This document shows positions 16,293 through 32,546 of a DNA stretch of 38,102 bases, in pieces. Each line of letters begins with the position of its first letter. Position 1 is the first letter of the stretch. Under the pieces are notes generated by a model. It saw nothing but the letters and a program-made list of their open reading frames with translations. It was not told where the DNA came from and made no database searches. The stretch covers positions 1 to 38,102 of the IMG/VR virus record IMGVR_UViG_3300025674_000135. One strand, written 5' to 3'. This stretch comes from a virus. The position numbers were made by a program, and so were the translations under genes.

Positions 16293-16311
16293 TAACATTG
16301 GAGGTATTACA

Positions 16312-16374: not shown

Positions 16375-16400
16375 AAAAGGGGCGATTAGCCCCTCTTAGT
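16371..16400. terminator. Bidirectional intrinsic terminator between the two opposing blocks
   Basis: GGGGC at 16379-16383 pairs with GCCCC at 16389-16393 around the loop GATTA. On the minus strand the stem is followed by TTTTTTAT, a classic terminator for the leftward block. On the plus strand the tail TCTTAG is weaker but still ends the peptide unit. Both converging transcription blocks end here. Confidence 0.85.
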
Positions 16401-19629: not shown

Positions 19630-20891
19630 TGCCACTCCAAATGTTTAAAGGTTTGATAGTCTCCCATAAACTCCAGACTCGCAGTCGGGCTTATACCTTG
19701 TCGGTTCTTCTGGAACTTGGCAACGATGTGTGTGCCTTGAATGTCTAGATTCTGTTGTATCAGCTCACCGCTTACCCGTACACCCTCTGATGGTACCTCC
19801 ATCAAGAACAATATAATATCTGCAAAGTTCTCTACATTCTTAGAGTACGCTACAGTATTAGAATCATTCGGGTGGGCAAGTAATACGATAGGTATTTTAA
19901 GATCATCACGCAAAGCCTTGAGCCTACGGATGAAGTGATCATACATAACAGTCTTGCTGTCGAACCTTTCGCCCCCGTCATTAATACAGAGTAGGTTATC
20001 TATGAAAATAATGTCTGCCCCATCCTTCGCCTCGGCTACCGCCCAAGCTCTGATCTCATCTATACTCATACCTTTATCACGAATGCGTAACTCCAAGCAC
20101 TTTACTTGATCATTGGCTAGAGTTGCTTTCACCTTCTCATCTTCGGTTACCCGACCTCTGGCTCTCATCCTGTATGTGTTTACCTGCCCCTTCTGTGCTA
20201 TGAATCTTGGCATCAACTCGGATGACAACATTTCAAGTGAGGCTAGTGGTGCTTTCAGTTTAGTTTCGTGCAGGTGTAGCATCCATTGTAACATCAATGC
20301 GGTCTTACCTGTAGAGCGTGGTGCGTGTAGAATCATAAGCTCAGTAGATAGTCTACCCAAATGGTTTGTCCACTCTGGACACCACCAAGGGCAATGCCCC
20401 ACCTTACCATCTATACAGTCTTGTATAAACTTCTCGCCTAGTACATGAAGCGGTTCATCTTTCTGTACCTCCACGTTCATACCGATTAAACGGCTGAGAA
20501 CTTCGTCTGAGGCACTTTCTCCATCGTAGGCTAACCTTATACCATCTTCTAATATTTTTATCTCAGAACGCAATTTAGCCGTTCTCTTCACTTCTTTAGC
20601 ATAGTGCGTTGAGTAGGCTGATACACCTACTAAATCTTGTAGTGATAATAATCTGTCAAATCCGCCTACCGATTCTAGCTTGTTACGCTTCTCTAACTCG
20701 CTTCCTATCATAACGGCATCGATAGCAGGATTCTCGATATACATATCTAATAGTACCTGCCATAAGATTTGATTCTTCCTATCGTAGAAGTCTTCTGGTT
20801 TTACATCTAGCTTGCCGATGCGTGAGGGGTCTAACAAACACGACCCCAACACGCCCTCCTCACTTTCCATATGAAATGGCATATTCCTCAT
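19626..20891 (-). CDS. DnaB-like replicative DNA helicase
   Basis: A 421-residue protein with the DnaB layout. The N-terminal helical domain (about 5-110) includes SEEGVLGSCLLDP. A RecA-type ATPase domain has the Walker A-like HAPRSTGKTALM (about 189-200), Walker B DIIFIDNLL (about 293-301) and a sensor strand IPIVLLAHP. The Walker A starts with Ala instead of the usual Gly but keeps GKT. The enzyme would unwind DNA at the fork by 5'-3' translocation. No primase or polymerase is encoded, so it must work with host DnaG and Pol III. It overlaps the initiator gene upstream by ATGA, suggesting loader and helicase are made together. Confidence 0.9.
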   Translation of the reverse strand: MRNMPFHMESEEGVLGSCLLDPSRIGKLDVKPEDFYDRKNQILWQVLLDMYIENPAIDAVMIGSELEKRNKLESVGGFDRLLSLQDLVGVSAYSTHYAKEVKRTAKLRSEIKILEDGIRLAYDGESASDEVLSRLIGMNVEVQKDEPLHVLGEKFIQDCIDGKVGHCPWWCPEWTNHLGRLSTELMILHAPRSTGKTALMLQWMLHLHETKLKAPLASLEMLSSELMPRFIAQKGQVNTYRMRARGRVTEDEKVKATLANDQVKCLELRIRDKGMSIDEIRAWAVAEAKDGADIIFIDNLLCINDGGERFDSKTVMYDHFIRRLKALRDDLKIPIVLLAHPNDSNTVAYSKNVENFADIILFLMEVPSEGVRVSGELIQQNLDIQGTHIVAKFQKNRQGISPTASLEFMGDYQTFKHLEWH

Positions 20892-21511
20892 AGTTCAACT
20901 GCCTTCCTTTCCTCTTGTTTAATTATCTCATCTTCCCACATACGATTCGTAGGGTTTATCCAACCTTGAAAATCCTTGCGGTACTTATACTCTCTTGCAT
21001 CTATGTATGCAGGTATGGCTTTCGTTATCGCAATCTTATCTTCATACGACAGCTTCTTCCAATACCTCATAGCTGTTTGCTTGTTGCCCTTACGTCCATA
21101 CTGAATCCAGACAGTCTCAAATAAGTTATCTGTTTCTGTATCTGGTTTAGTATATGGTATAGGTTGCTCAGTTCTTGACTCTCGAATGTTTATTTCTGAA
21201 CATTGGATTCTGTCAGATAGAGCATACCACTTGGTCTGATCGTAGCCTATAGCATTGAAGTTGCCAGACTCGATTAATCCCTCTGCCTCCATATCTCTCA
21301 ACAGTCGACTGATCTTCTGTCGTGACCAATATGGATAATGGTGGCTCATATCAGATGCGGATTGGTACATCCACACCTTGTTGTTGTGCTGATGGGTAGT
21401 CTTATCTTTGTTCTGATTACACCAAAAGCGAATGTGCTGTAGGAGCAGGGATTTCTCAACCCCATACTCCACAGCCTCCTGCACGTTAAATGCATGGCAT
21501 TCTCTATTCAT
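20888..21511 (-). CDS. Replication initiator / helicase-loader-like protein
   Basis: A 207-residue protein. The first part (about 10-105) looks like a winged-helix DNA-binding domain (YGVEKSLLLQHIRFW, then RQKISRLLRDMEAEGLIESG). The C-terminal part (about 130-195) has FETVWIQYGRKGNKQTAMRY and DFQGWINPTNRMWEDE, the short helical domain typical of phage replication proteins that bind or load DnaB-type helicases. It would bind the origin and bring in the helicase encoded immediately downstream (4-base overlap). The ATG has a strong GGAGGAATA site in the end of the previous gene. The origin itself was not identified. Confidence 0.75.
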   Translation of the reverse strand: MNRECHAFNVQEAVEYGVEKSLLLQHIRFWCNQNKDKTTHQHNNKVWMYQSASDMSHHYPYWSRQKISRLLRDMEAEGLIESGNFNAIGYDQTKWYALSDRIQCSEINIRESRTEQPIPYTKPDTETDNLFETVWIQYGRKGNKQTAMRYWKKLSYEDKIAITKAIPAYIDAREYKYRKDFQGWINPTNRMWEDEIIKQEERKAVEL

Positions 21512-21745
21512 TTATTCCTCCGTATCGTATTGAAACACATACCCTCTAGCGTGAGGATACCTACCTCGTAAGTTTCCTATAATATGACAGCGGTCTATGC
21601 CTGTCAATCTACTTGCTTCGGATATTGAGTTAAAGGTAGCACCCACCGCTAAAAGTGGGGCTTCCTGTTCTGGATGAGTAGTACCTATCTTGTCTGTTAT
21701 TATTACACGACAGCTCTTGCCTTGTCTTGTAGCAATCATATGCAC
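21512..21745 (-). CDS. Small NUMOD1-like helix-turn-helix DNA-binding protein, 77 aa
   Basis: A 77-residue protein whose second half reads FNSISEASRLTGIDRCHIIG followed by an Arg-rich turn and GYVFQYD. A strand, a SISEA-type helix-turn-helix and a final aromatic strand are the features of NUMOD1 modules, usually attached to homing nucleases, but here without a nuclease domain. It may be a regulator of the replication genes that follow. The start overlaps the previous gene by 10 bases. Its coding region also holds a good minus-strand promoter at 21579-21607. Confidence 0.55.
   Translation of the reverse strand: MHMIATRQGKSCRVIITDKIGTTHPEQEAPLLAVGATFNSISEASRLTGIDRCHIIGNLRGRYPHARGYVFQYDTEE
21579..21607 (-). 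promoter_or_regulatory. Internal leftward promoter before the replication genes
   Basis: On the minus strand TTGACA (plus-strand 21602-21607), a 17-base spacer and TATTAT (21579-21584), inside the 77-aa gene. It would transcribe the initiator, helicase and SSB genes independently of the main early promoter. Confidence 0.6.
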
Positions 21746-22695
21746 TCATCCTCTCTGTACTTGACACCTAACATATCTAGCCCACGCTTAACTAAGCATA
21801 CGCCTTGATAGTTGGATTCAATGTCATCAGCTTCGACCACGCTACAACTGTAGCCCTGCTTGGCTTTAGACCCAAACGCAACCACCATAGCTAATGTAGG
21901 CTTGTCATCTGTACTGGCGTTCTTAGCATAAAAGCTAGCCTGTATTTTATGATGTGGCTTAACTTGCTTGCTAGATTTCCAGTCAACAATAGCTAGATGT
22001 CTTACACCTTTGTAGTCAACATAACCTAGCCAATCGTACTGACCAGTCACATTGATGTTAGTGTCACGAACACGAATCTCTGTTTCGATTGTCTCTGGTT
22101 GAAACTTGTCGACCCAATGACCTAGACCATCTGGCAAATGCTCTCCGCTATCATCCTCACCAAGTAAGAACTTCTCGATAGCATCGTGCATAGCTGTGCC
22201 GTTTGTCTGTGCATCGCTTATTGCTCGAACATAATCTTGGTGTGTGCCACCTTGATCGAAAGCCCACTTGATTATGCCGTCAAACCCTCCACCTAAGTTG
22301 AGATAGTTTAACAAGGATGAGATGCGTAAATATCTAGCACCAATACTAGGTGAGAATACATCTTCATCTTCAACCTCGATAGCAACACGAACGCTACCCA
22401 GAATACCTTTGTGTTCTGTGTTCCAACTGTCACCATTGTCGGGGGTGTATGCATAACGCACCACCTCACCGACCTTAGCTTTGACGGCTAGCTCTTGGTT
22501 ACTGCCCTTGTGTCCACCTCTGGATTTAGGAACATAACCAATCTTAACATCCTTATACATAATCTTAACTGCGTTAGGATCGTATGGGTTGTCTGGCTCT
22601 GGAACAAACTGAACCGCACCAGTCGGGCGTAACTCTCGGAGGAGGTGATTCCTCTCCCCCTCTTTGAGTATGCCTGCTGTTGAGAACTCTATCAT
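21736..22695 (-). CDS. HIRAN domain fused to PD-(D/E)XK (RecB/Cas4-like) nuclease
   Basis: A 319-residue protein. Residues about 4-95 form a HIRAN domain (PEPDNPYDPNAVKIMY and IGYVPKSRGG), a fold that binds DNA ends, for example in HLTF. Residues about 160-275 form a RecB-like nuclease with H170, E206, D221 (GQYDW), the IVDWKSSK motif (D238, K240) and a Gln-containing helix (Q252, IQASFYAK). The enzyme likely trims DNA ends in recombination or replication. I chose ATG 22695, which overlaps the upstream stop (ATGA), over a GTG 15 bases earlier. Domain recognition is good; the biological role is inferred. Confidence 0.8.
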   Translation of the reverse strand: MIEFSTAGILKEGERNHLLRELRPTGAVQFVPEPDNPYDPNAVKIMYKDVKIGYVPKSRGGHKGSNQELAVKAKVGEVVRYAYTPDNGDSWNTEHKGILGSVRVAIEVEDEDVFSPSIGARYLRISSLLNYLNLGGGFDGIIKWAFDQGGTHQDYVRAISDAQTNGTAMHDAIEKFLLGEDDSGEHLPDGLGHWVDKFQPETIETEIRVRDTNINVTGQYDWLGYVDYKGVRHLAIVDWKSSKQVKPHHKIQASFYAKNASTDDKPTLAMVVAFGSKAKQGYSCSVVEADDIESNYQGVCLVKRGLDMLGVKYREDECI

Positions 22696-22874
22696 AGATG
22701 TGACCCCCACTTCTCATCGGTGGTTAACATCTCTGCATTAGCTTGCTCTTGTGTCATGTGTTCATCTTGCAATACATTGACGATAAAATCTGCGATACGC
22801 ATCGCTTGCTCATCATCATATGCTAGACCACTTATGTTGAAGTAGCCGTCCTTTCGTTCTATTTCTAATGGCAT
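22692..22874 (-). CDS. Small acidic protein, 60 aa
   Basis: A 60-residue ORF with a strand pair at the start (MPLEIERKDGYFNISGLAY) and a helix (EQAMRIADFIVNVLQDEHMT). A very good ribosome site (AAGGAGGCAAT) precedes the ATG, and the end overlaps the HIRAN-nuclease gene by ATGA. I recognise no family. Coupling suggests a helper of the nuclease, but this is only position-based. Confidence 0.55.
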   Translation of the reverse strand: MPLEIERKDGYFNISGLAYDDEQAMRIADFIVNVLQDEHMTQEQANAEMLTTDEKWGSHL

Positions 22875-22988
22875 ATTGCCTCCTTCATTGTTAATAAAAT
22901 TGGTGTGGGAATAGTATGTGTCAAACGTGGGAAGGGTGTCGTTTTCAACCCTTCAGAAAATGGGCGAGGGAGCCACCCCCGCATTAGG
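22875..22988 (-). promoter_or_regulatory. Gap with hairpin and weak leftward promoter candidate
   Basis: A 114-base gap. The minus strand holds a 7-bp stem (GAAGGGT with ACCCTTC) and then TTGACA (plus-strand 22919-22924), but only a poor -10 at usual spacing (AATTTT at 17, TTTTAT at 19). The gap ends with the strong AAGGAGG site of the 60-aa gene. A restart of transcription here is possible but not firm. Confidence 0.35.
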
Positions 22989-23102
22989 CTATAGTTTATC
23001 TTCAGCGTCAATCTTTGACAGATCAAGAGCATAGTCTTTCTCTTCGTCTTCACCCCAATACCAATCTGGGGGGTCTACGGGTAACTGTGGAATCATTTCC
23101 AT
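22989..23102 (-). CDS. Small acidic protein, 37 aa
   Basis: A 37-residue ORF (MEMIPQLPVDPPDWYWGEDE at the start) that is strongly acidic with a Trp/Tyr cluster. It overlaps the end of the upstream 70-aa gene by 10 bases. I prefer it to the other frame in this place (22865-23053), which encodes a proline- and arginine-rich string that does not look like a protein. Function unknown. Confidence 0.5.
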   Translation of the reverse strand: MEMIPQLPVDPPDWYWGEDEEKDYALDLSKIDAEDKL

Positions 23103-23305
23103 GATTTTTTATCTCCGTCTTTGTATTCGCTAATAATCTCATAGTCTGTGTTGCCATAGCTTTTATCAACTTCAGTAGCTGAACTGATAATATCATATGG
23201 ATTACGACCATTCGCAACGAACTCATTGTAGTCCTTCTCTGAGAGAGTGACCTCGTGAGTCTCCGTTACTTCTTCATATATAATACATTTCACATGATGC
23301 TTCAT
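23093..23305 (-). CDS. Hypothetical protein, 70 aa
   Basis: A 70-residue soluble protein with strands near the start (HHVKCIIYEEVTETHEVTLS) and a short helix (EKDYNEFVANG). The ATG at 23305 overlaps the lysozyme-like gene's stop (ATGA); a longer reading from 23386 would run through that gene. No family recognised. Confidence 0.55.
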   Translation of the reverse strand: MKHHVKCIIYEEVTETHEVTLSEKDYNEFVANGRNPYDIISSATEVDKSYGNTDYEIISEYKDGDKKSWK

Positions 23306-23673
23306 TTTAGATACCTTTCGCATTTTGACCAATAATAATCGGTAGCACTTGGTCTGTCGAACAAACCACGATAGCCACCATTCCATAACCTACAGTAGAT
23401 TTCATAGGTTGGCTTTTCACCTGTACGCTGTTCATAACGCTTGCCGTAGTAGGTGAGCCATAGCTTGGCAATCTTCATACTAGCCTGCCTGTCATATCTA
23501 TCCATCGATAAAAACTTCTTACGATAGATACGATTTACATCTTCAATAACTGGCATTTGAATCTGAAGACAGCCGATACTTGCACCGCTGTCACCTACCG
23601 CTTGATCGGGGTAGATTTCTCCACCCGTCTCAACAGCGATAAGCACAGCCAATAGTATTGACCAATCAATCAT
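23302..23673 (-). CDS. Lysozyme / transglycosylase-like endolysin candidate
   Basis: A 123-residue protein with a hydrophobic N-terminus carrying E15 in AVETGGEIYP, then AVGDSGASIGCLQIQ, and later YCRLWNGGYRG. The Glu after a hydrophobic helix, the G-x-S-x-G-x-x-Q-I segment and the N-G-G turn are the layout of lysozyme-fold transglycosylases (SLT or goose-type), with E15 as likely catalytic acid. It would cut peptidoglycan and is the only wall hydrolase seen, so it probably serves as the endolysin for the holin at 15484. Its first 14 residues could be a signal-anchor. It is unusual in lying in the leftward early block. It overlaps both neighbours (ATGA). Confidence 0.7.
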   Translation of the reverse strand: MIDWSILLAVLIAVETGGEIYPDQAVGDSGASIGCLQIQMPVIEDVNRIYRKKFLSMDRYDRQASMKIAKLWLTYYGKRYEQRTGEKPTYEIYCRLWNGGYRGLFDRPSATDYYWSKCERYLK

Positions 23674-24059
23674 GAGTTGACGTTCACAGCTAAGTTGCCA
23701 CCACTCAAGCGATTTCTTCGCTTCAAGTAATTATCACTAACCTCATGCTTAACAAACCTATTTTCATATTGCTTGCTAGGACTGAACACATCTTGACAAA
23801 CAAATGTGCAGGTTACATCATCACGATATGAGCTGACCCATCCATCACTATGTTGAAACCATATCTGCCAATTATCACCATCTTCTGGTTCATGACAAGT
23901 AATCTCAAACAGCTTGAAATGATGATCTTTCCATTTCATCGTGTTTCCGCTTGAGTAGGCGAGTGTGTGAGGATTCTTAAAGAATGCCTCAAATGGAGTA
24001 TTACCCCATCCCCAACCTTGATAGCTTGTTACTGCATACTTGACGTATTTTTTTTCCAT
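23670..24059 (-). CDS. Hypothetical protein, 129 aa
   Basis: A 129-residue protein rich in Trp, Tyr and Phe (YQGWGWGNTPFEAFF, DGDNWQIWFQHSDGWVSSY) with two Cys near the middle, probably a compact beta fold. No signal peptide or membrane span. It is preceded by hairpin element copy 1 and a GAGAGGAATAGT ribosome site. Function unknown. Confidence 0.6.
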   Translation of the reverse strand: MEKKYVKYAVTSYQGWGWGNTPFEAFFKNPHTLAYSSGNTMKWKDHHFKLFEITCHEPEDGDNWQIWFQHSDGWVSSYRDDVTCTFVCQDVFSPSKQYENRFVKHEVSDNYLKRRNRLSGGNLAVNVNS

Positions 24060-24062
24060 ACT

Positions 24063-24157
24063 ATTCCTCTCTCGAATGCTTTTTGAGGAGTTGCGACCTC
24101 GACAGCATCACTATAATACTGCCCTGCATTAAGGGGTTTTTACACCCCCCGCTCTGC
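24063..24157 (-). repeat. Intergenic hairpin element, copy 1 of 5
   Basis: On the transcribed (minus) strand the element contains GCAGAGCGGGG, hairpin A (GGGG with CCCC), TTAATGCAGG, hairpin B (24103-24108 with 24116-24121, one G-U pair), hairpin C (GAGG with CCTC around TCGCAACT; 24085-24088 and 24097-24100), then a GAGAGGAAT ribosome site. The stop codon of the 86-aa gene lies inside hairpin A. Confidence 0.8.
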
Positions 24158-24400
24158 TTTATATGAATCAAGAAATCTATCGGTGAGAACTTCGTCTACA
24201 TCAGTAAGAATACCAATAGTTTTTAGAACCCTCAGTACCGCAGAGTACCTGCCTCTAGCATCTCCATAATCTAGGTGATCTACCTTCGACCATGTCGTGC
24301 CATCTTTTCTACAGGCTTTCTCGTGCTTTACCCAAGCATTGTAATCATTACGAGCATCGAATAATTCATCAGCGAGTGATTCCAATATTTTTGTGTCCAT
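24140..24400 (-). CDS. Hypothetical protein, 86 aa
   Basis: An 86-residue mostly helical protein (DTKILESLADELFDARNDYN and RYSAVLRVLKTIGILTDVDE) with mixed charge. ATG 24400 follows the conserved GAGAGGAATAAC site of element copy 2; the upstream in-frame extension runs through the element and is not used. The last codons (AERGV) are encoded by hairpin A of element copy 1. Function unknown. Confidence 0.6.
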   Translation of the reverse strand: MDTKILESLADELFDARNDYNAWVKHEKACRKDGTTWSKVDHLDYGDARGRYSAVLRVLKTIGILTDVDEVLTDRFLDSYKAERGV

Positions 24401-24406
24401 TTTGTT

Positions 24407-24504
24407 ATTCCTCTCATAGTTGCTGTGCTTTTTGCGGAGTTGCGACCGCGACAGTATAATTATAATACTGCCCTGCATTAAGGGGCAAAAGCCCCCCGCT
24501 CTGC
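24407..24504 (-). repeat. Intergenic hairpin element, copy 2 of 5
   Basis: Same architecture as copy 1. Hairpin A is GGGGC with GCCCC (24482-24486, 24491-24495). Hairpin B is a perfect stem (24452-24457 with 24465-24470) whose loop contains TATAAT. Hairpin C is GCGG with CCGC (24434-24437, 24446-24449), while copies 1, 3 and 4 have GAGG with CCTC: a compensatory change around the same loop. Confidence 0.85.
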
Positions 24505-24505
24505 A

Positions 24506-25507
24506 TTAGATTGAAACTGCAAGCTCACGCTCAATGATACGACCTTGAGCAATGGTAGCCTTGACCCGATCACTATCACCCAAGATGTTAAGCACCTTGT
24601 GTTTAGTACGATGACCCGCACCGACCATTGATGTCTTGACTTGTGATTCTGCACTACGCTTAGAGTCTGCATACCCATGAGTATGGAACTCAGTAAAGGC
24701 ATTGAACATATCGTAGCGAGTCTCACCCTTGTTACCCATACCAGAACGGTACAAGCCATGAATGTGATTCGCTAGATTAGTACCACGACCAGAAACTGAG
24801 TTATGGTAGCCTAGACTAAACAATCGTGCATCGTCATCATTCATCGGAGTGTTCATCAAGCGTTCGCATTGCTTGATAAATTCACTACGAGAATCGAACA
24901 TCTCTGCCATTGCTTCGATCATGCCGTTGAACTTCCAACGAGCCGATTTGGTTTTACGAATTGTCATTCTGACAAGATCGTTTTTACCTTTTGCTTTAGT
25001 GGCAAAGAACTGATTCATGCAAGTAAGACGAGTGAGTGTATCACCAAACGTAGTAGAGCATGAACCATCATGGCTAGACCACATAGTTAGGTAACCCTTG
25101 AAGGCATCACCATTGATTGAAAAATCAGAGTGATTACCTACATCAGCCTGTATAAATACACGACCGCCACCATCTGTCATACCCATGTTAGCTATCGTAA
25201 AATCGTGACCCTCAAGAGAGTTGCACAATCCCTCGAATAGCTGAGTATTCTGAATGATTTCGTAGCCTGTGCCGACCGTGCCGATCTGCTTACCATTGTC
25301 CTCACGAACCATAGCAAGCTCTTTGGCTTCGATCAAAGTAAGACCCAGATTATCAGCATATGCCGATTCATCTTGGCGAGCAGGAGCATGAAAAAACTGC
25401 TTCCGTTTCGCAACTTTCCAATCGAGGATTGAACCCTCGAATGAAGTGGTGTTGCCTTTTTGCGAGTACTGCGTCAACTGACTAGCATTAACATTTGTTG
25501 CATTCAT
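24506..25507 (-). CDS. DUF932 family phage/plasmid-like protein
   Basis: A 333-residue protein of the DUF932 group, known from phages, plasmids and genomic islands. Landmarks are AMVREDNGKQIGTVGTGYEI near residue 70, FEGLCNSLEGHDFTIANMGM, the GGGRVFIQADVG strand, CSTTFGDTLTRLTCMNQFF, and the helical C-terminus with YRSGMGNKGETRYDMFNAFTE. Its biochemical role is not established; a link to anti-restriction or conflict functions has been proposed because of its genomic neighbours. ATG 25507 follows the GAGAGGAATAGT site of element copy 3. It is the largest of the repeat-flanked genes. Confidence 0.8.
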   Translation of the reverse strand: MNATNVNASQLTQYSQKGNTTSFEGSILDWKVAKRKQFFHAPARQDESAYADNLGLTLIEAKELAMVREDNGKQIGTVGTGYEIIQNTQLFEGLCNSLEGHDFTIANMGMTDGGGRVFIQADVGNHSDFSINGDAFKGYLTMWSSHDGSCSTTFGDTLTRLTCMNQFFATKAKGKNDLVRMTIRKTKSARWKFNGMIEAMAEMFDSRSEFIKQCERLMNTPMNDDDARLFSLGYHNSVSGRGTNLANHIHGLYRSGMGNKGETRYDMFNAFTEFHTHGYADSKRSAESQVKTSMVGAGHRTKHKVLNILGDSDRVKATIAQGRIIERELAVSI

Positions 25508-25513
25508 ATTACT

Positions 25514-25612
25514 ATTCCTCTCATTGTATCGCTGTGCTTCTGAGGAGTTGCGACCTCGACAACCGAACAATTCGATTGACCTGCATTAAGGGGCGAATGC
25601 CCCCCGCTCTGC
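25514..25612 (-). repeat. Intergenic hairpin element, copy 3 of 5
   Basis: Hairpin A is GGGGC with GCCCC around ATTC. Hairpin B pairs 25560-25567 with 25571-25578 around a 3-base loop (8 pairs, one G-U), with a stem sequence unrelated to copies 1 and 2. Hairpin C is GAGG with CCTC around TCGCAACT. It lies between the 45-aa gene upstream and DUF932 downstream. Confidence 0.85.
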
Positions 25613-25613
25613 A

Positions 25614-25751
25614 TTATGATTTATTATATTTACGCTTTTTTAATCCGAATGAGTTTTTGCAAACAATACGTTGATGGGTATGAACTTGCCATACCTTTGG
25701 CTCTTCCTTAATAACTCCTTTATCATCACGATAGTATTTCGTTTCAAACAT
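25614..25751 (-). CDS. Small basic protein, 45 aa
   Basis: A 45-residue basic protein (MFETKYYRDDKGVIKEEPKV at the start, Lys/Arg-rich at the end). The conserved GAGAGGAATTAC site of element copy 4 precedes ATG 25751. It is bounded on both sides by element copies, which supports it as a real gene despite the small size. Function unknown. Confidence 0.55.
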   Translation of the reverse strand: MFETKYYRDDKGVIKEEPKVWQVHTHQRIVCKNSFGLKKRKYNKS

Positions 25752-25755
25752 TGTA

Positions 25756-25854
25756 ATTCCTCTCATTGATTCGCTGTGCTTTTGAGGGGTTGCGACCTCG
25801 TAAGTTGAACTATTCAACCTACCCGCATTAAGGGCTATGAAGCCCTCGCTCTGC
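25756..25854 (-). repeat. Intergenic hairpin element, copy 4 of 5
   Basis: Hairpin A is AGGGC with GCCCT around TTCATA (one end pair changed together compared with copies 2 and 3). Hairpin B pairs 25801-25809 with 25813-25821 (9 pairs, one G-U). Hairpin C is GAGG with CCTC with loop TCGCAACC. It precedes the 45-aa gene. Confidence 0.85.
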
Positions 25855-25855
25855 A

Positions 25856-26110
25856 TTAGATTATTTGGAGAGTTTGTTTGACTCCGTCACTACTCCAATA
25901 ATCATTCCATTTTTCACGATCATCCCATGAACAATGCCACGTTATATCAAGACCCTCTTTTTCAAGAAGCAATGAGATAAACGGGCGTATCTCACCATCC
26001 TGCGTTCTGGTTGGTTTGATATCAAACTTGGAGCATAAAGTAAGCATATAGCCCCATTTGCAATCGACATAACTGTGTCTAATCATACATGATTCTAATC
26101 TATCACTCAT
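25856..26110 (-). CDS. First gene of the leftward block, hypothetical 84-aa protein
   Basis: An 84-residue protein with four Cys and many Trp (CKWGYMLTLCSKFD, DITWHCSWDDREKWNDYWSS). The ATG at 26110 follows element copy 5 with its GAGAGGAATTATT site. It is the first clear gene after the early promoter, about 395 bases from the likely transcription start. First-expressed small phage proteins often act on host functions, but no family is recognised here. Confidence 0.6.
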   Translation of the reverse strand: MSDRLESCMIRHSYVDCKWGYMLTLCSKFDIKPTRTQDGEIRPFISLLLEKEGLDITWHCSWDDREKWNDYWSSDGVKQTLQII

Positions 26111-26114
26111 AATA

Positions 26115-26192
26115 ATTCCTCTCATTGTCACTCTGCATTCATTCGGGGTTGTGACCGTCAAGACTCACACAATATGAGCCTGCCTGCATTAC
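26115..26192 (-). repeat. Intergenic hairpin element, copy 5 of 5 (promoter-proximal variant)
   Basis: Has hairpin B (26162-26168 with 26176-26182, 7 pairs including one G-U), a shortened hairpin C (CGG with CCG around a TCACAACC loop) and the GAGAGGAAT site, plus the TAATGCAGG box. It lacks the G-rich hairpin A. In the other copies hairpin A sits at the end of a preceding gene, and here no gene precedes. Confidence 0.75.
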
Positions 26193-26505
26193 AATGAGAG
26201 AGGAGGCGAACCCGCTGTAGTAAGGATGTTAACCCGTTGAAGTCTTCGCCATTACGAAGCGGTTTTGTAAGTAACCCGCTAAGGATATGATCTCGTCTCG
26301 CTTGCCATATCATCGCCATTGTCGTTGGTCTACCGTCACAGTTTCAGCCGTTGTCGCATGGAGCCTGTTAGCATTCCCATCGCCTCCCGAAGGATGCCTG
26401 CCGTTACCCACTCAGCTCGTAAGTGCATTGACGTGTATTTGAGTTGCCCGCCATCTGCAACCGCCCGACTCGCACCATCTCGGACTCGCTCTCTTAATTG
26501 TTACA
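26193..26505 (-). ncRNA. GC-rich structured leader or non-coding RNA of the early transcript
   Basis: About 310 bases, clearly richer in G and C than the rest of the genome, between the early promoter and element copy 5. On the minus strand it has hairpins such as AGCGG(G)TT with AACCGCT, immediately followed by CTTCG with CGAAG, and three CGGGTT repeats. No long ORF exists. Three short frames overlap end to start (26478-26404, 26411-26310 with a GTG start, 26313-26158), which could be coupled tiny genes, but their ribosome sites are weak. I favour a structured RNA; no known class was recognised. Confidence 0.45.
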
Positions 26506-26511
26506 AGGCAT

Positions 26512-26540
26512 AGCCTATCACAACCTGTGAAAGACTGCAA
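26512..26540 (-). promoter_or_regulatory. Main leftward early promoter with possible operator
   Basis: On the minus strand TTGCAG (plus-strand 26535-26540), a 17-base spacer and TAGGCT (26512-26517). Two A-tracts lie just upstream at UP-element distance. The spacer contains the 13-base inverted repeat TCACAGGTTGTGA, which looks like a repressor or activator site. The -10 is weak against consensus, so the A-tracts or an activator may compensate. Confidence 0.55.
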
Positions 26541-26600
26541 GCCTTTTTTTCACATCTTTTTTCAGTTGATATTTGGGGGGTTCAGATTTACCTTGAACAT

Positions 26601-27008
26601 ATGAAATATAAAGATGCCAAAACCCTATATGATGAGATCAAATCAGCAGACAATAAAGAACTCTACGCTATATGCACAGAGATAATCAACACTACACGAA
26701 AACAAGAGAAACAAATCGAAAAAAACAAGACAAAATCGAATGTTTTAACCACCGCCATCGACTTCAACGATCAATCCCTAACACGCACGCACACGTTGCA
26801 AAATTTATACCAAATGATGCTTGACGGGAACGCCACAGCGGGGAAATACTTTGCAGAGTATACAAATATCAAGCAAGATAATGACAATCTTCGTATAGAG
26901 ATAGTACGTTTTAAAGATATTAAAGACTATGATGATCTGAGCGAGACTGAACCAACCTTAGACAACATAAACTCTTGCGAAGAAATCAAAGGGCAGGTAA
27001 GAAATTAA
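26601..27008 (+). CDS. Possible small terminase subunit, 135 aa
   Basis: A 135-residue, charged, helical protein (LYDEIKSADNKELYAICTEI, then LQNLYQMMLDGNATAGKYFA). It is the first gene of the rightward block and lies four genes upstream of the large terminase, where a DNA-recognition subunit is expected. The segment LYQMMLDGNATAGKYFAEY resembles the central helix pair of small terminases. No clear helix-turn-helix is seen. The ATG at 26601 has no good ribosome site. Assignment rests mainly on position. Confidence 0.45.
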   Translation: MKYKDAKTLYDEIKSADNKELYAICTEIINTTRKQEKQIEKNKTKSNVLTTAIDFNDQSLTRTHTLQNLYQMMLDGNATAGKYFAEYTNIKQDNDNLRIEIVRFKDIKDYDDLSETEPTLDNINSCEEIKGQVRN

Positions 27009-27024
27009 GGGGTGGGGTCGGGGT

Positions 27025-27053
27025 TTGCGATTTTCAATTTTGCGAAATATAGA
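27025..27053 (+). promoter_or_regulatory. Rightward promoter before the terminase cluster
   Basis: TTGCGA at 27025-27030, a 17-base spacer and TATAGA at 27048-27053, in the 59-base gap after the 135-aa gene. The spacer includes a second TTTGCGA, giving a direct repeat 15 bases apart (27024 and 27039) that could bind a regulator. Flanking G-rich runs (GGGGTGGGGTCGGGG) lie immediately upstream. Confidence 0.5.
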
Positions 27054-27067
27054 CCCCTCTAAACAAA

Positions 27068-27244
27068 ATGAAAAATTTTAATATTCCAGATGTGAAACTT
27101 GAAGACCTGTCTTACTGTGAATGTGTAGACTGCGGAAATTACTTTTATGTAGTTGAATTACCTATGGCGATAAACGACCCTAAGTTTTGTCCATACTGCG
27201 GGGTTGACTTTTATTATTGTTTGGGGGAAGAAGATGACAGTTAA
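27068..27244 (+). CDS. Zinc-ribbon-like small protein, 58 aa
   Basis: A 58-residue ORF with CECVDCGNYF and, 19 residues later, FCPYCGVDFYYC. Two C-x-x-C pairs at ribbon spacing suggest a structural zinc ribbon, common in small nucleic-acid or transcription-associated phage proteins. It follows the promoter at 27025 closely and overlaps the next gene by 11 bases. Function unknown. Confidence 0.65.
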   Translation: MKNFNIPDVKLEDLSYCECVDCGNYFYVVELPMAINDPKFCPYCGVDFYYCLGEEDDS

Positions 27245-27374
27245 GACTTGCCAAGAGTGTTGTTGTATAGACACGGAGGATAATCCGATACTAGAAGTGT
27301 TGGATGCAGAGGGTGAGGTTGAAGAATACATATGTATGATGTGTTATGCGGAGGAGATAGATGAGCGGGGGTAA
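27234..27374 (+). CDS. Cysteine-rich small protein, 46 aa
   Basis: A 46-residue acidic ORF starting MTVKTCQECCCIDTED and carrying CMMCYAEEID near the end, so again two Cys pairs that may bind one zinc. It has a GGGGGAAG ribosome site within the previous gene and overlaps both neighbours. With the gene before it, it forms a pair of tiny zinc-ribbon-like proteins in front of the terminase. Confidence 0.6.
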   Translation: MTVKTCQECCCIDTEDNPILEVLDAEGEVEEYICMMCYAEEIDERG

Positions 27375-27546
27375 TGTACCACACAGATACACACAGGAAG
27401 CCCAAGATGAGCGTGATTGGAAGAAGGGCAAAACCAGAGATGGTGAGAACTACAACTACGCCAAGTACGACAAGAAGGCTTACCAGAATAACTATGACGA
27501 GATAGACTGGAGTGCTAAAGGCACAGGGAGCAAAAAGGCTAAGTGA
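27361..27546 (+). CDS. Small charged protein, 61 aa, upstream of terminase
   Basis: A 61-residue hydrophilic protein (NYNYAKYDKKAYQNNYDEID in the middle, Lys-rich end) that is probably disordered. GGAGGAGATAG precedes ATG 27361. It overlaps the previous gene by 14 bases and the terminase start (GTGA). It may help packaging, but no family is recognised. Confidence 0.55.
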   Translation: MSGGNVPHRYTQEAQDERDWKKGKTRDGENYNYAKYDKKAYQNNYDEIDWSAKGTGSKKAK

Positions 27547-28925
27547 AGATACGCATACCAACGATATGCCCTCGTGAGTATCAGTTTGGCGTATGGAACG
27601 CTGTAGAGAGCGGTGCTAAGAATGTTGTGATCTCTTGGGCGAGGCGGCACGGTAAGGATGTCACTACGGCTTCCATATTGAGCTGTAAGGCGTTAGAACG
27701 GGTTGGTTCTTACTACTACCTGTTTCCCACAAGAAAGTGGGCTGAGAGGGCGTTATGGAATAACATTGTTACCATCGGCAAAAAGAGTGGCAACCTGTTA
27801 GATATTATTTTTCCCCCTGAGATTGTAGAGTATAAGAACAATACGGATATGAAGATTGGGCTTATCAACGGTTCGGTGATTAACTTTAGCGGTACTGACA
27901 ACCTTGATTTTGTGGGGCAGGGGGGTTATGGCTATGCCCTGTCTGAGTTTTCGCTTCACAAAGAAGAGGTCACGGGGTTTTTGTCTCCGATTTTAGATGA
28001 AGGTAATGCGTTCTTTATAGCCAACGGTACGATGCGTGGTAGAAAAAATCTTCTGTACCAGATGTACGAGGCTAACAAAGATGACCCTAACTGGTTTACC
28101 GAGTGGCTGACGCCACAAGATACAAAGCGATATTGTTGGGTGGGCGATGAGATGAACCTTAACCCAGAGCTTCTTGGCAAGATTGACCCGCTTACTGGTA
28201 ATGAGTATCTAAACATTCAGAACCGTGTAGATTCTAAGATGATCAGTTATTCGCTTGCTAGGCAGGAGTATCTGAACGAGGCGGTTGCCGATGTGGCGAA
28301 CTCTGTGTATGGCTACGAGATGACTAAGCTAGAAAACAAAGGAATGATTACGCCTTTGATACACAACAAAAACGATGTGGTATATACATTTTGGGATTTA
28401 GGTGTGGATGACCCGACAGCGATAGTGTTTGGTACGGTCGACAGCAGAACGGATAGAGTGCAGATTATTGATTACTATGAAAACACAGGGTATGATATAA
28501 AGCATTATATAGATGTGATACACCAAAAAGGATATAACTATGGCGGGCATTATATGCCACACGACTCCAAGAAAAGGGCAAACAATACAGGCACTAACAT
28601 TATTGATTTTTGTCGTACAGAGTATGGCTTTGAGGTGCGTCCGATTCCTAAAACTAACTCTGTGCGTGATGATATTGAGATTATTCGGAGGTTTTTGCCA
28701 AGTATATGGATTAACTCAAAACTAGATAAGTTGATTGAGTGTTTAATAAACTATCAATGGAATCCAGTTACAGGCAGAGTTTTGCATAATGAATACTCTC
28801 ATGGAGCAGATGCTGTGCGTATGATGGGTATGTGCATTCACAATCGTATGATAGATCAGTATCTTAATATTGATAGAACTAATGTAACACCACAATACTT
28901 AGATGGAGGTGGGTATTTAGTATGA
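27543..28925 (+). CDS. Terminase large subunit (packaging ATPase-nuclease)
   Basis: A 460-residue protein with both terminase domains. Near the N-terminus the Walker A-like ARRHGKD (33-39) follows the conserved CPREYQ adenine-motif region, and the ATPase core continues with FPTRKWAERALWNNIV and GQGGYGYALSEFS (Walker B area). The RNase H-like nuclease has FWDLGVDDPTAIVF (D near 284), MPHD and HGADAVRMM near the C-terminus, giving the acidic metal ligands. It drives DNA into the prohead and cuts it. The start is GTG 27543, overlapping the upstream stop. Length is on the short side but complete. Confidence 0.92.
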   Translation: MKIRIPTICPREYQFGVWNAVESGAKNVVISWARRHGKDVTTASILSCKALERVGSYYYLFPTRKWAERALWNNIVTIGKKSGNLLDIIFPPEIVEYKNNTDMKIGLINGSVINFSGTDNLDFVGQGGYGYALSEFSLHKEEVTGFLSPILDEGNAFFIANGTMRGRKNLLYQMYEANKDDPNWFTEWLTPQDTKRYCWVGDEMNLNPELLGKIDPLTGNEYLNIQNRVDSKMISYSLARQEYLNEAVADVANSVYGYEMTKLENKGMITPLIHNKNDVVYTFWDLGVDDPTAIVFGTVDSRTDRVQIIDYYENTGYDIKHYIDVIHQKGYNYGGHYMPHDSKKRANNTGTNIIDFCRTEYGFEVRPIPKTNSVRDDIEIIRRFLPSIWINSKLDKLIECLINYQWNPVTGRVLHNEYSHGADAVRMMGMCIHNRMIDQYLNIDRTNVTPQYLDGGGYLV

Positions 28926-29308
28926 CACCGTATGAAAGAGCAAAAGAACTATACAAAGACAAAGAAAATGAATTCTTTGAAATACTTGAACATTGTGGCA
29001 AGGTAGGCGGCATTCATTCTGATGAAGATTGTTTTGTATGTGCTTATCAGACTTATTCAGAATCTATAAAAAATAAAACACAAAAAAGACTTGACAAGCT
29101 AGACACTTGGTATATATACATTCTCGCAGGTGACCCGAAAAAGGCATTTCATTACACGATGAAAGATATGAAATATGTTGCCTATGAAAGATTTGACGGC
29201 AAGGTAAGACTAGTAGAAAAAGAAAAAATAGAGAATTTACTGTGGCGTACATCTCTGCGAGGTAGAGAATTTAGTGATCACCGCCATAGATTTGAAGTTG
29301 GAGTTTAG
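28922..29308 (+). CDS. Hypothetical protein, 128 aa, between terminase and portal
   Basis: A 128-residue, mostly helical soluble protein with three Cys in the first 45 residues (EHCGKVGG, DCFVCAYQTY) and a basic C-terminal region (WRTSLRGREFSDHRHRFEV). Its ATG overlaps the terminase stop (ATGA). Genes at this place can be packaging or head-completion factors, but this family is not recognised. A sigma-70-like promoter lies inside it at 29091-29118. Confidence 0.6.
   Translation: MTPYERAKELYKDKENEFFEILEHCGKVGGIHSDEDCFVCAYQTYSESIKNKTQKRLDKLDTWYIYILAGDPKKAFHYTMKDMKYVAYERFDGKVRLVEKEKIENLLWRTSLRGREFSDHRHRFEVGV
29091..29118 (+). promoter_or_regulatory. Possible internal promoter before the portal cluster
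   Basis: TTGACA at 29091-29096, a 16-base spacer and TATATA at 29113-29118, within the 128-aa gene. The sequence starts with the same CTTGACAA string as the other rightward promoters. It could boost portal expression, but it lies in coding sequence and may be chance. Confidence 0.4.
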
Positions 29309-29310
29309 TA

Positions 29311-29547
29311 ATGGGAAGTTCAAAAACGCCTGAATATACACCGCCACCTGCACCTATGATTACTCGTATGCCTATAGAGGCTGATTTCGAAAAAGACGCA
29401 ATGAAGGCGAGAAAAAAGAATCAAAAAGCAAAAAGACCTAAACAGCCATTACAATACAAAGATGTAGTTGGTCAGGGCAAAACTTTATCAGATGTACGGG
29501 GTTCTGGAAAAGGAACAACCGTTTTTAGTATGGGTAATTATCAATAA
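29311..29547 (+). CDS. Small proline- and lysine-rich protein, 78 aa
   Basis: A 78-residue protein with a proline-rich start (TPEYTPPPAPMITRMPIE), a Lys-rich middle (KARKKNQKAKRPKQP) and a glycine-rich end. It is probably disordered or a linker-type virion protein. GGAGTTTAGTA precedes the ATG. It shares the proline-rich opening with the next gene, so the two may be diverged copies of one head- or portal-associated protein. Confidence 0.55.
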   Translation: MGSSKTPEYTPPPAPMITRMPIEADFEKDAMKARKKNQKAKRPKQPLQYKDVVGQGKTLSDVRGSGKGTTVFSMGNYQ

Positions 29548-29556
29548 GGACTTATC

Positions 29557-29769
29557 ATGGGTAGATCATCAGCACCAAAACCTCCACCACCTCCACCACC
29601 ACCTTCTCCTACGCCAACTCGTGTAGATACAGCAGGTCAACAAAAAATGGCTCAAAAAACACAGGCGGCTAGACAAGGTAGAGCATCTACTATTCTTACC
29701 AAGCGTAAAGCAAAAACTAAAAAACTTGGTGAAAATACAAAAGGCACAACAAACATATTGGGTCAATAA
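29557..29769 (+). CDS. Small poly-proline protein, 70 aa
   Basis: A 70-residue protein starting MGRSSAPK followed by eight prolines in a row, then a polar Gln/Ala/Lys-rich C-terminal half. Preceded by AAGGACTTATC as ribosome site. Small Gly-Ser-Pro proteins directly before the portal gene are common in environmental podoviruses; function unknown. It overlaps the portal ATG by one base (TAATGG). Confidence 0.6.
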   Translation: MGRSSAPKPPPPPPPPSPTPTRVDTAGQQKMAQKTQAARQGRASTILTKRKAKTKKLGENTKGTTNILGQ

Positions 29770-31430
29770 TGGATGGCAAAGCATTAGTTAAAAAATTTGA
29801 CTCAATGAACTCATATGCTATTGGTAACTGGAAAAACCTTTGGCAAGAATGTGCTGATTGGGCTATGCCTACAAACGATAACATCAATCGTGTTCGTTAT
29901 GAAGGTATGGAAAAGTCACCACAACGTATGATTGATACCTGTATTGAGGCTAACTATAACTTTGCCGCAGGGTTTTATTCTCATATGTTTCCGCCAAACA
30001 GCGTGTGGGCTAAATACCGTCACCCCAATCCAATGCTAATGGCTGATGAATCTGTTGCTTATTATTTTGAACAGGTCAGCCGTATTGTGCATCAGTTGCT
30101 TATTGGCTCTAACTTTGCACAAGAAGAGTTTCAAGCGTTGCTATGTATGGGGGCATTTGGAACTAACTGCTTAACACTAGAAGAAGACGAGAAAGATATT
30201 ATTCGTTTTCGCAACCACATCATTGACAATGTGCGTATTGAAGAAAACAACTTAGGTGCGGTAGATACTATTGCCCGTGAGTTCAAGCTAACACCACGAC
30301 AAGCGATTCAGCAGTATGGTGTAGAAGCATTGAAGGCGGCAGGTCTTGAGCAGATAGAACAAGAAGCCCAAGATTATAAGCATAAAAAATATACATTTAT
30401 TCAGTTTATTATGCCTCGTGCATCGTATGACAAGTCTTCTAAAAAATCTATCAACAAGCCATTTGCTTCTTATCACATAAATCGTGAGCGTGGTACTGTG
30501 GTTCAAGAGGGTGGATTTGACTACAACCCATACAAAGTAGCAAGATTTACTAAAGGCAATGACGAAGTATATGGTCGTTCGCCTATGAGCATGGTACTTG
30601 GTACAGCTAGACGCACAAATGTTATCTATCGTTCTATGGTGCTTGCCGCAGAACAAAGAGCTAATAGCCAATGGCTTGTGCCAGATGATGACAGCGTAAC
30701 CAACATCAGCAACCGTGCAGGTGCAATAATTAAATGGAGAGCAACTAACCCTAATGGTAAGCCAGAGCGTTTGCCACCTTGTGGGGATTCTGGTTTGGCT
30801 TTTGAAATGTATCAAGTGCATGAAAAGCAAATCAAACAGATGTTCTTTAATCACTTGTTCCGTCCTCTAGAAGATTACCGTAACATGACAGCTACCGAAG
30901 TAAATGAGCGTATGACTACAGATATGATGACGCTTGCACCGTTTGTCAGTCGTTACCTTAACGAACACGTTAATCCTATGATGGAACACCTTTTCTATAT
31001 TGCACAGAAAAAGAACTTACTGCCAGAAATACCTGCGGCACTACAGGAAGACCCAAGCTATGAGATTGACTATGTTGGTCGATTGTCTATGGCAACTAAG
31101 TCTTTTGAGACTATGGGTGCAATCAACACATTGCGTGTGTTCGGTGAGCTATCTCAGATGGATCCAAATATGCAGGCATCATTGCAGAATGTTCAGCCAG
31201 ATAAACTCTTCCGTGAGATATGGTATGCAAACAGCTCTAGCATGAATGCATTAAAAGACCCAAGCGAGTTAGAAGCTGAACGAGCGGCACAAATGGAGAT
31301 GATGCAACAACAGCAAATGATTAATGCCGCACCTAAGATAGCAGATGCCGCACAAAAGGTAAGTGGTGCTGTTGACCCAACTAGTATTGTAAATCAAGTT
31401 GAACAGGGAGATATTGATCTTGGACAATGA
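29769..31430 (+). CDS. Portal (head-tail connector) protein
   Basis: A 553-residue protein of the T7-type head-tail connector family. Diagnostic parts include the N-terminal YAIGNWKNLWQECADWAMP, the SPQRMIDTCIEANYNFAAGF helix, MGAFGTNCLTLEE, the YGRSPMSMVLGTARRTNVIY segment and FRPLEDYRNMTATEVNER. Twelve copies would form the ring at one capsid vertex through which DNA is packed and ejected and to which the tail attaches. The C-terminus is Gln/Met-rich, as in many portals. It lies between the packaging genes and the scaffold. Confidence 0.92.
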   Translation: MDGKALVKKFDSMNSYAIGNWKNLWQECADWAMPTNDNINRVRYEGMEKSPQRMIDTCIEANYNFAAGFYSHMFPPNSVWAKYRHPNPMLMADESVAYYFEQVSRIVHQLLIGSNFAQEEFQALLCMGAFGTNCLTLEEDEKDIIRFRNHIIDNVRIEENNLGAVDTIAREFKLTPRQAIQQYGVEALKAAGLEQIEQEAQDYKHKKYTFIQFIMPRASYDKSSKKSINKPFASYHINRERGTVVQEGGFDYNPYKVARFTKGNDEVYGRSPMSMVLGTARRTNVIYRSMVLAAEQRANSQWLVPDDDSVTNISNRAGAIIKWRATNPNGKPERLPPCGDSGLAFEMYQVHEKQIKQMFFNHLFRPLEDYRNMTATEVNERMTTDMMTLAPFVSRYLNEHVNPMMEHLFYIAQKKNLLPEIPAALQEDPSYEIDYVGRLSMATKSFETMGAINTLRVFGELSQMDPNMQASLQNVQPDKLFREIWYANSSSMNALKDPSELEAERAAQMEMMQQQQMINAAPKIADAAQKVSGAVDPTSIVNQVEQGDIDLGQ

Positions 31431-31629
31431 TGAATTAAATATACTTGTAGGTTCATACCGCAGAGTATTTTCTACACAAGAAGGCGATACTGTGTTGAAA
31501 GATATAAGAAACTTTTGCTCTATGGATGAGCAAGTAGGGAGTCAGTTGACTCATTCAGAGTGTGCGTATCGTAATGGTATGCAGGATTTATTTAGATATA
31601 TAGAAGCTATGGCAAGTGAGGACAGATAA
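31420..31629 (+). CDS. Small protein after portal, Bbp19-like
   Basis: About 69 residues with the order DELNILVGSYRRVFSTQEGD, VLKDIRNFCSM, then SECAYRNGMQDLFRYIE. The pattern of an aromatic-Arg helix, a T-x-x-G-x-x-V-L-x-D-L core and a later A-Y-R-x-G-x-x-D segment is that of the Bbp19-type small phage proteins next to portal genes. The start is uncertain: TTG 31420 has GGGAG about 9 bases upstream, while another TTG at 31399 would add 7 residues. Both overlap the portal end. Function unknown. Confidence 0.6.
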   Translation: MDNDELNILVGSYRRVFSTQEGDTVLKDIRNFCSMDEQVGSQLTHSECAYRNGMQDLFRYIEAMASEDR

Positions 31630-32265
31630 ATGCGTAAATCAATATACAAACGAAAAAAGAAAACAGAAGAAAAACCAACTGAAGCTGTAAAAAAAGGAAG
31701 CTCTCGTGGAAATTATAAAGGCGGTAAGCCTAAATCAACTATTTCTGAAGCCTTAAAAAAAGCTGATGATTATTTAAAGAGTGGTAAGAAAGTAACAAGT
31801 AAGAATAAGCGTGGTGAAGGTGCTAATCGTTTAGCTAATAAAAGAAAATCTGAACAGCAAGAGTTGCAAGCTACTATGAAAAAGACTTCTCGTGGTAGTC
31901 GTCCTACTGAAGCTACTCGTAAACTTCGTGCAAAGATAAAAGCAGAAAAAGATGCCGCTAAAAAGAATCAACCACCTAAAAAAACAAATCGTGTTCCTTC
32001 ATCTAAAGCACCAACTAAAAAAGCAGTTGGCGGTAAAGCACCCGTAAAAGGTAAAACACCTACAAGTGAAGCGGCAAAAGCGGCTGTAGGTAAAAAGAAA
32101 GCAACCGAAGCTGTAGCAGAAGTTGTTAAGAAACAAAAAGAAAAACGGTTATCACCTAGTCAAAAAGTTTACACGGACAAAGAAGGTAAAAAGTACAAAA
32201 AAGTACGAACTACTGCATCTAAAGTTCGTGGTGGTGGAATGAAGTACAGACGGAAATATATGTAA
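31630..32265 (+). CDS. Lysine/alanine-rich histone-H1-like protein, 211 aa
   Basis: A 211-residue protein that is extremely rich in Lys, with Ala, Pro, Ser, Thr and Gly (for example KAPTKKAVGGKAPVKGKTPT). The composition and the repeated K-x-x-P/A pattern resemble the tails of histone H1 or of bacterial HU-type extended proteins, so it may neutralise packed DNA or coat ejected DNA. There is no globular domain apart from a possible helix near the start (TISEALKKADDYLKSGKK). It is expressed among the head genes and overlaps the next basic gene by one base. Role inferred from composition. Confidence 0.55.
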   Translation: MRKSIYKRKKKTEEKPTEAVKKGSSRGNYKGGKPKSTISEALKKADDYLKSGKKVTSKNKRGEGANRLANKRKSEQQELQATMKKTSRGSRPTEATRKLRAKIKAEKDAAKKNQPPKKTNRVPSSKAPTKKAVGGKAPVKGKTPTSEAAKAAVGKKKATEAVAEVVKKQKEKRLSPSQKVYTDKEGKKYKKVRTTASKVRGGGMKYRRKYM

Positions 32266-32546
32266 TGCCTAAAACTGCACTCAATCGTAAGAAGGGTGTT
32301 TCTATGCGTAAAGTGCATAAAAACCCTACTGGTGGCTTATCTGCAAAGGGTCGCAAGTATTACAATGCTAAAACTGGTAGCAACTTAAAAGCACCCGTAA
32401 CAGGCAAAGTAAAACGTGGCAGTAAAGCCGCCAAAAGACGAGCATCATTTTGTGCAAGAATGAGCGGTATGAAAGGTGCTATGAAAGACAGCAAAGGAAG
32501 ACCAACAAGAAAAGCACTTGCTTTACGAAAATGGAAATGTAGATAA
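32265..32546 (+). CDS. Small basic conserved phage protein (DUF6321-like), 93 aa
   Basis: A 93-residue basic protein with the conserved run GGLSAKGRKYYNAKTGSNLK, then AKRRASFCARMSGMKGAMKD and a C-terminal PTRKALALRKWKC. I know this arrangement from small proteins of many podoviruses and cyanophages, possibly filed as DUF6321. It is likely a DNA-associated virion component or packaging helper. The ATG overlaps the stop of the Lys-rich gene by one base. The two genes plus the scaffold form one run. Confidence 0.7.
   Translation: MPKTALNRKKGVSMRKVHKNPTGGLSAKGRKYYNAKTGSNLKAPVTGKVKRGSKAAKRRASFCARMSGMKGAMKDSKGRPTRKALALRKWKCR

Follow-up and report, generated by a model that had tools for sequence, protein, structure and literature searches.

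The stretch analyzed here (the window) comprises all 38,102 nucleotides (nt) of a virus record from IMG/VR, IMGVR_UViG_3300025674_000135 (also called G000). On its minus strand, from 26195 down to 24085, five copies of one RNA motif precede five consecutive leftward genes (Table 1). A first-pass annotation had described an intergenic element in five copies at 24063–26192, and direct reading together with alignment located both the element on the minus strand and its sequence blocks as described (GCAGAGCG, TTAATGC-GG, GGTCGCAAC-CC, and GAGAGGAAT followed by ATG). Judged from their sequence and predicted fold, every copy is a self-cleaving ribozyme of the twister class: the four lying between genes are type P5, and the one at the front of the block is type P1. 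Twister types P1, P3 and P5 are circularly permuted forms that take their names from the open stem; types P3 and P5 have been described before (PMC5408937).

Table 1 Twister ribozymes and genes of the leftward block, with cut sites predicted according to PMC5408937 (aa, amino acids).
Feature	Coordinates	Strand	Match	Predicted cut or 3' end
Front copy (copy 5), type-P1 twister	26195–26124	−	RF03160, 41.1 bits, E 6.5e-7, gathering 67.2	26191 (U)/26190 (A)
Gene A, 84 aa	26110–25856	−	No Pfam match	Stop UAA 1 nt before GCAGAG of ribozyme 1
Ribozyme 1, type-P5 twister	25855–25784	−	RF02684, 38.4 bits, E 9e-6	25830/25829
Gene B, 45 aa	25751–25614	−	No Pfam match	Stop UAA 1 nt before GCAGAG of ribozyme 2
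Ribozyme 2, type-P5 twister	25613–25542	−	RF02684, 40.9 bits, E 2.1e-6	25588/25587
DUF932 gene, 333 aa	25507–24506	−	PF06067, E 3.1e-24	Stop UAA 1 nt before GCAGAG of ribozyme 3
Ribozyme 3, type-P5 twister	24505–24434	−	RF02684, 43.9 bits, E 3.7e-7	24480/24479
Gene C, 86 aa	24400–24140	−		3' end overlapped by ribozyme 4, stop codon in P1 loop
Ribozyme 4, type-P5 twister	24158–24085	−	RF02684, 36.8 bits, E 2.4e-5, gathering 37.6	24131/24130
Gene D, 129 aa	24059–23670	−		First gene past the last ribozyme

At the Rfam gathering threshold three copies (ribozymes 1 to 3) are called type P5, with ribozyme 4 just under the score, and a search of the region alone recovers all five. The front copy fails the type-P1 gathering score, which none of the 47 searched records, window included, passes; this score is a curator's cut-off and corresponds to no structural feature. 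Rfam searches of the window returned no further twister match, no pistol ribozyme, and no ribozyme between the genes downstream of gene D.

The three hairpins of the first-pass annotation, A, B and C, correspond to the twister stems P1, P3 (optional) and P4. GCAGAG and UUAAUGC build P2 and the internal loop containing the cut site, and the P4 loop makes both pseudoknots (T1 and T2). The annotation had missed these two loop-loop pseudoknots and the Rfam family membership; its proposal of an RNA processing module was the right class of answer, which can now be narrowed to a twister ribozyme. Known type-P5 and type-P1 twisters (RF02684, RF03160; PMC5408937) share P1, P2, P4, the optional P3, both pseudoknots, the loop bases and the U-A cut site with the window copies. 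The fold is thus unchanged, and the difference lies in its deployment: each boundary of the block is occupied, and a single operon combines a leading type-P1 copy with type-P5 copies that separate the genes.

The front copy had been reported to lack hairpin A. It only seems to be missing because the copy is circularly permuted: P1 arises from pairing between the two outermost strands, CUCUCAUUGU on the 5' side and ACAAUGAGAG on the 3' side, and GCAGAG lies 3' of P4, not 5' of P1. This copy aligns end to end with RF03160 and has a P1 of 10 base pairs in the computed fold. Its loop reads TCACAAC and so departs from the TCGCAAC described as conserved. The fold energy of this copy is unremarkable (z −0.56), so energy alone provides no evidence in this case.

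A megablast comparison of the block with INPHARED returned no near matches. A search with the DUF932 gene led to two close relatives, L237 (98% identity) and L238 (93%); further sister phages (L243, L246, L261, L264 and L282) were found via the portal gene. We assessed covariation, pseudoknots included, over 11 type-P5 copies from the window and the two close relatives, using 500 shuffles. Pairing is present in 97.3% of cells, compared to 86.1 ± 1.3 in shuffled alignments, and falls to 41–54% when the partners are slid. The covariation score is 0.397 against 0.181 ± 0.020, a value reached by none of the shuffles. There are 29 double-change cells, and both sides vary in nine pairs, located in P3 (6 of 8 pairs), P1 (2 of 6) and P4 (one pair), with the core bases constant: the cut-site A, GCAGAG, UAAUGC and GGUC-CAA are invariant in the type-P5 copies of the group, and the U-A cut site and invariant G agree with the twister review (PMC5408937). 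The compensatory changes noted earlier, in hairpin B (P3), in hairpin C (GAGG/CCTC to GCGG/CCGC) and in hairpin A (AGGGC/GCCCT), are real, and the claim that the structures are selected as RNA is supported across the further copies in these three phages.

T1 and T2 are paired in 100% of this group. Neither shows a both-sided change in type P5 there, so support for the type-P5 pseudoknots rests on a wider viral set, obtained by pattern scans for type-P5 and type-P1 twisters whose viral counts are lower bounds (at least the numbers given). Among the matches listed, 148 distinct viral type-P5 sequences carry the varying T1 pair as U-A (110), C-G (18), G-C (14) or A-U (3); it is thus paired in 145 of 148 and non-Watson-Crick in three, the search pattern having fixed the neighbouring positions and left the two counted positions free. 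T2 is likewise mostly paired among these matches. The front copy, with orthologues in L237, L238 and L283, shows a double change in T1 itself, being GAGUG/GGUCAC in the window and L238 and GAGCG/GGUCGC in L237 (U-A versus C-G).

Most type-P5 copies of the group (window 25542–25784, minus strand; L237; L238) carry GCACAGCG, one base off GCAGAGCG, after P4, a position matching the place of the genuine GCAGAG in the type-P1 copy; it is probably a relic of permutation by duplication. We also considered a two-way ribozyme, in which a second GCAGAG after P4 lets one core serve both permutations. Near matches to such a second GCAGAG occurred in 11 of 145 sequences of the wider sample, among the matches listed, with 2.4 expected; since the GCACAG remnant of the group itself accounts for six of these 11, this arrangement is not general. 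Other records have Rfam type-P1 matches that overlap type-P5 twisters; these matches are weak, and the core common to both types is probably their cause.

The type-P5 copies of the window are joined to the stop codons of their upstream genes (Table 1), and this position recurs widely. We examined 134 distinct type-P5 twisters in viral contigs, among the matches listed, and a second set of 60 from bacterial genome contigs. Because open reading frames (ORFs) were defined with a simple rule and the sequences include related ones, the counts are descriptive and do not represent independent trials. Type-P5 twisters are also present in the genomes of two cultured isolates, Desulfosporosinus lacus DSM 15449 and Desulfosporosinus sp. 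I2. A stop codon ending an upstream sense ORF lies at most 10 nt from the 5' edge of the ribozyme in 102 of the 134 viral cases (random 8.2%; antisense 10/134) and in 37 of the 60 bacterial ones (random 5.8%; antisense 5/60). A near stop combined with a Shine-Dalgarno sequence and start within 80 nt was found in 107 of 134 (random 8.8%; antisense 7/134) and, for stop plus Shine-Dalgarno and start in the bacterial set, in 40 of 60 (random 8.4%; antisense 0/60). Three registers are favoured: UAA or another stop 1–2 nt ahead of GCAGAG, UAG whose G is also that of GCAGAG, and UGA within GCAGAGUGA. The motif itself partly dictates this third register; when it is excluded, 82 of 134 still fall within 10 nt. 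A stop within −15 to +10 nt also accompanies 9 of 9 type II hammerheads retrieved by searching with the group's own sequence, as well as 25 of 52 pistols, compared to 5–6% at random.

Such ribozymes also occur in arrays. A survey of 40 records chosen for a type-P5 match at a locus yielded an 83-kb contig with 15 type-P5 twisters within 9.4 kb, another contig with seven, and a 5.5-kb fragment with six. In the first of these (L285; 3300027896_000024, 20000–32500), the densest array seen, nearly all copies lie at gene boundaries, mostly with UAG sharing its G with GCAGAG and with an AAGGAGA-like site and start just downstream.

Related phages place other ribozyme classes at the same kind of boundary. 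The block of L237 carries one type-P1 and four type-P5 twisters, and that of L238 one type-P1 and three type-P5 twisters, with two pistols (62.2 and 59.2 bits) at the remaining two boundaries. A type II hammerhead lies in the block of L264 (47.6 bits). Further matches to this class came from the L246 (41.0) and L282 (61.1) records, and the L243 record gave a pistol match (66.8). The sister-phage ribozymes that we inspected all lie in sense direction directly 3' of the stop codon of the upstream gene. In related phages, three unrelated self-cleaving classes thus take up positions of one kind, and five type-P5-bearing records also contain a pistol (G004, G041) or a type II hammerhead (G003, G012, G034). 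Because the trait common to the exchanged classes is self-cleavage, this exchange is the strongest argument from sequence comparison suggesting that cutting itself is selected.

The exchange also bears on whether these regions are ordinary structured intergenic RNA, with hairpins that protect 3' or 5' ends or serve as RNase sites and do not self-cleave. The boundaries of sister phage L261, which are plain hairpins followed by A/T-rich runs, would fit such a reading. We nevertheless regard it as highly improbable for the window, where the non-helical core positions of an active class and both pseudoknots are all kept; simple hairpins need neither, and would not be expected to be exchanged with two other self-cleaving classes. 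The L261 hairpins recur in several copies at gene boundaries (L261:3200–6700, minus strand), as TAGCATGGCACGAGCGGGTCGCTCCCGTTCC followed by AATTTTATT and GGAGAA, often with the stop codon TAG at the 5' edge; they have no Rfam match and could be weak terminators, 3'-end protectors or an undescribed processing element. In L264 (6550–6600, minus strand) we noticed by eye, between two genes, a type I hammerhead-like sequence (CCTAACCGATGACGCC...GGCAGAAACCGC...GCGGTCTTAGG) with CCGATGA replacing CUGAUGA, which Rfam missed; the Rfam type I hammerhead search of 47 records, run without a positive control, gave no match.

We consider it likely that the leftward early block is a ribozyme-punctuated operon, the early polycistronic RNA being cut into single-gene messenger RNAs (mRNAs). 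One transcript would traverse all genes of the block, and each intergenic region, once transcribed, would fold as a twister and cut itself between the U and A of UUAAUGC. At a type-P5 copy, the upstream message would retain the P1 hairpin and GCAGAG, a short 3' end right after the stop codon, and P3, P4 and the Shine-Dalgarno sequence would pass to the downstream message, which would start with 5'-OH AAUGC. The earlier assignment of hairpin A to gene ends and of B and C to gene starts agrees exactly with a predicted cut that separates P1 from the remainder. The products would be single-gene mRNAs, each with a 3'-end hairpin and a structured 5' leader, in predicted pieces of 361, 242, 1108 and 349 nt plus the remainder, and the front copy would trim the leader. 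In bacteria, a terminal hairpin after the stop codon and a structured leader with a 5'-OH should slow mRNA decay, and the new ends should decouple the stability and expression of adjacent genes. We infer that cutting takes place in the infected cell and stabilizes its products, and that the ribozymes are retained for this reason.

Several points weigh against this reading. Two copies score below their Rfam gathering values (36.8 against 37.6 and 41.1 against 67.2), P5 pairing is not evident, and both self-cleavage and the transcript ends of the block are predictions from sequence. A scan for sigma-70-like promoters did not identify a promoter for the block, and a single transcript across the five genes is an assumption. 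Other, more distant portal relatives, many of them fragments, have no Rfam ribozyme, which together with the plain hairpins at the L261 boundaries implies that the function is non-essential or met otherwise. The same scan found 13 sigma-70-like sites compared to 9.0 ± 3.3 in shuffles, not one per element. The suggested likeness to the promoter-stem-loop (PeSL) modules of T4-like phages was therefore not borne out: those modules, in which a promoter and a stem-loop are repeated between small early genes, resemble the window elements as repeated intergenic stem-loops among such genes, but here the elements are ribozymes without a sigma-70-type promoter each, and the proposed mechanism needs none. 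Upstream of the front ribozyme lies a non-coding leader of ~400 nt (26200–26600, minus strand), partly common to L238 and L283.

The end chemistry given by the class, 5'-OH and 2',3'-cyclic phosphate, and the flanking of single genes by neighbouring ribozymes could also lead to circular or re-ligated messages, with ends joined by host RtcB or by the ribozyme. This outcome seems very unlikely to us: every gene keeps its own Shine-Dalgarno sequence, six records (window, G041, G023, G013, G042 and G051) contain no RtcB or RNA-ligase domain, and spliced or circular products of tandem hammerheads were sought and not found (PMC3088659).

The ribozymes are also points at which gene cassettes change. 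Gene order is A-B-DUF932-C-D in the window, X-A'-B-DUF932-D' in L237 and Y-X'-A''-E-DUF932-D'' in L238. DNA homology to L237 (96.9%) begins where ribozyme 1 starts and stops 8 nt beyond ribozyme 3, and that to L238 (93.0%) extends from ribozyme 2 to the same point. In the numbering of this comparison, the homology starts at 1147 for L237 and at 1385 for L238, next to the starts of ribozyme 1 (1146) and ribozyme 2 (1388), and for both it ends at 2575, close to the end of ribozyme 3 (2567). Since homology blocks begin and end at ribozymes and the genes between differ, the cassette shuffling proposed in the first-pass annotation is supported. This pattern, in which the start of ribozyme 1 or 2 and the end of ribozyme 3 bound the homology and the genes outside differ, might also mean that the elements are mainly DNA recombination boundaries for cassette exchange, their ribozyme activity being secondary or decayed. 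We judge this improbable, though less so than the other alternatives. Recombination would need shared sequence, yet the pistols and hammerheads that sister phages carry at such boundaries are not homologous to twisters; the compensatory changes and the invariance of catalytic bases indicate an RNA function, and sense orientation and stop-codon register are maintained across a wide set of phages. In a ribozyme-punctuated operon the boundaries are self-contained, so genes would be swappable between them.

The 3' strand of the 10-base-pair P1 of the front copy contains the Shine-Dalgarno sequence of gene A. Uncut RNA would therefore sequester this site in P1, and cutting may free translation. Such release is possible for some type-P1 twisters and is not the rule, because a Shine-Dalgarno sequence lies within P1 in 18 of 64 type-P1 twisters with a callable start (wider set, among the matches listed). 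In each of three type-P1 twisters of the viral contig L208, a long P1 joins a CCU-rich 5' strand to a Shine-Dalgarno sequence, which makes these copies candidates for cutting-dependent translation. A more speculative and rather doubtful extension is that phages widely use ribozyme-punctuated operons with any self-cleaving class as the mark, that stop-codon fusion lets the terminating ribosome gate cutting because it covers the strand needed for ribozyme folding, and that the front type-P1 copy locks the first Shine-Dalgarno sequence until it is cut. Stop-codon fusion and class exchange are observed; ribosome gating is the hypothetical part.

In 2011, prophage hammerheads were reported to cluster around single genes, and long phage RNAs were proposed to be cut into operon- or single-gene mRNAs (PMC3088659). 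The window resembles that system in that several sense-oriented ribozymes, here five, flank single genes or short blocks. It differs in the ribozyme class, in the occupation of every block boundary (with up to 15 ribozymes per block elsewhere), in the joining of stop codon and ribozyme edge, and in class exchange among close relatives. To the 2011 proposal the present analysis adds an array of twisters, the swapping of classes and the fusion to stop codons. Pistol ribozymes (RF02679; PMC4604425) occupy two boundaries of the same block in a sister phage with the same flanking layout, although their fold and sequence are unrelated to those of twister. The theta ribozymes of gut phages, similar to those of hepatitis delta virus (HDV-like; PMC10879173), are likewise self-cleaving phage RNAs with an inferred role in RNA processing; they have another fold and lie at transfer RNA 3' ends, whereas the window twisters lie between protein genes. 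Twister and hammerhead ribozymes have been associated with Mu-like phage genes and with each other, for a reason that 'is still unknown' (PMC10085705, 2023). Our literature search, outside which the founding twister (Roth 2014) and pistol (Weinberg 2015) papers fell, found no paper on stop-codon-joined ribozyme arrays or class exchange at operon boundaries, and priority is uncertain. New here are the arrangement and the comparative evidence, which suggests that self-cleavage at boundaries is what is kept. The role of twister, pistol and hammerhead ribozymes in bacteria and phages has long been unclear, and the window operon makes the question directly testable. If our reading is correct, these phages need no protein nuclease to process their messages, and the cut sites double as exchange points for accessory genes.

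The portal protein of the window virus, a head-tail connector (PF12236), is less than 30% identical to its best-matching Pelagibacter and other phages. At 16242–16375 (plus strand), a GGAGG site, a 20-aa ORF (MEVTLNYRGSTYVKVIKLDK) and a hairpin come after a glutamine riboswitch (RF01739, 47.8 bits), an order resembling cyanobacterial glnA/downstream-peptide arrangements. This riboswitch and tiny ORF suggest, by analogy, a cyanobacterial host, and the virus is probably a cyanobacterial one. Finally, a near-identical ORF, differing by few substitutions, occurs at 510–713 and 37891–38094 (plus strand), as if the ends of the record overlapped imperfectly.

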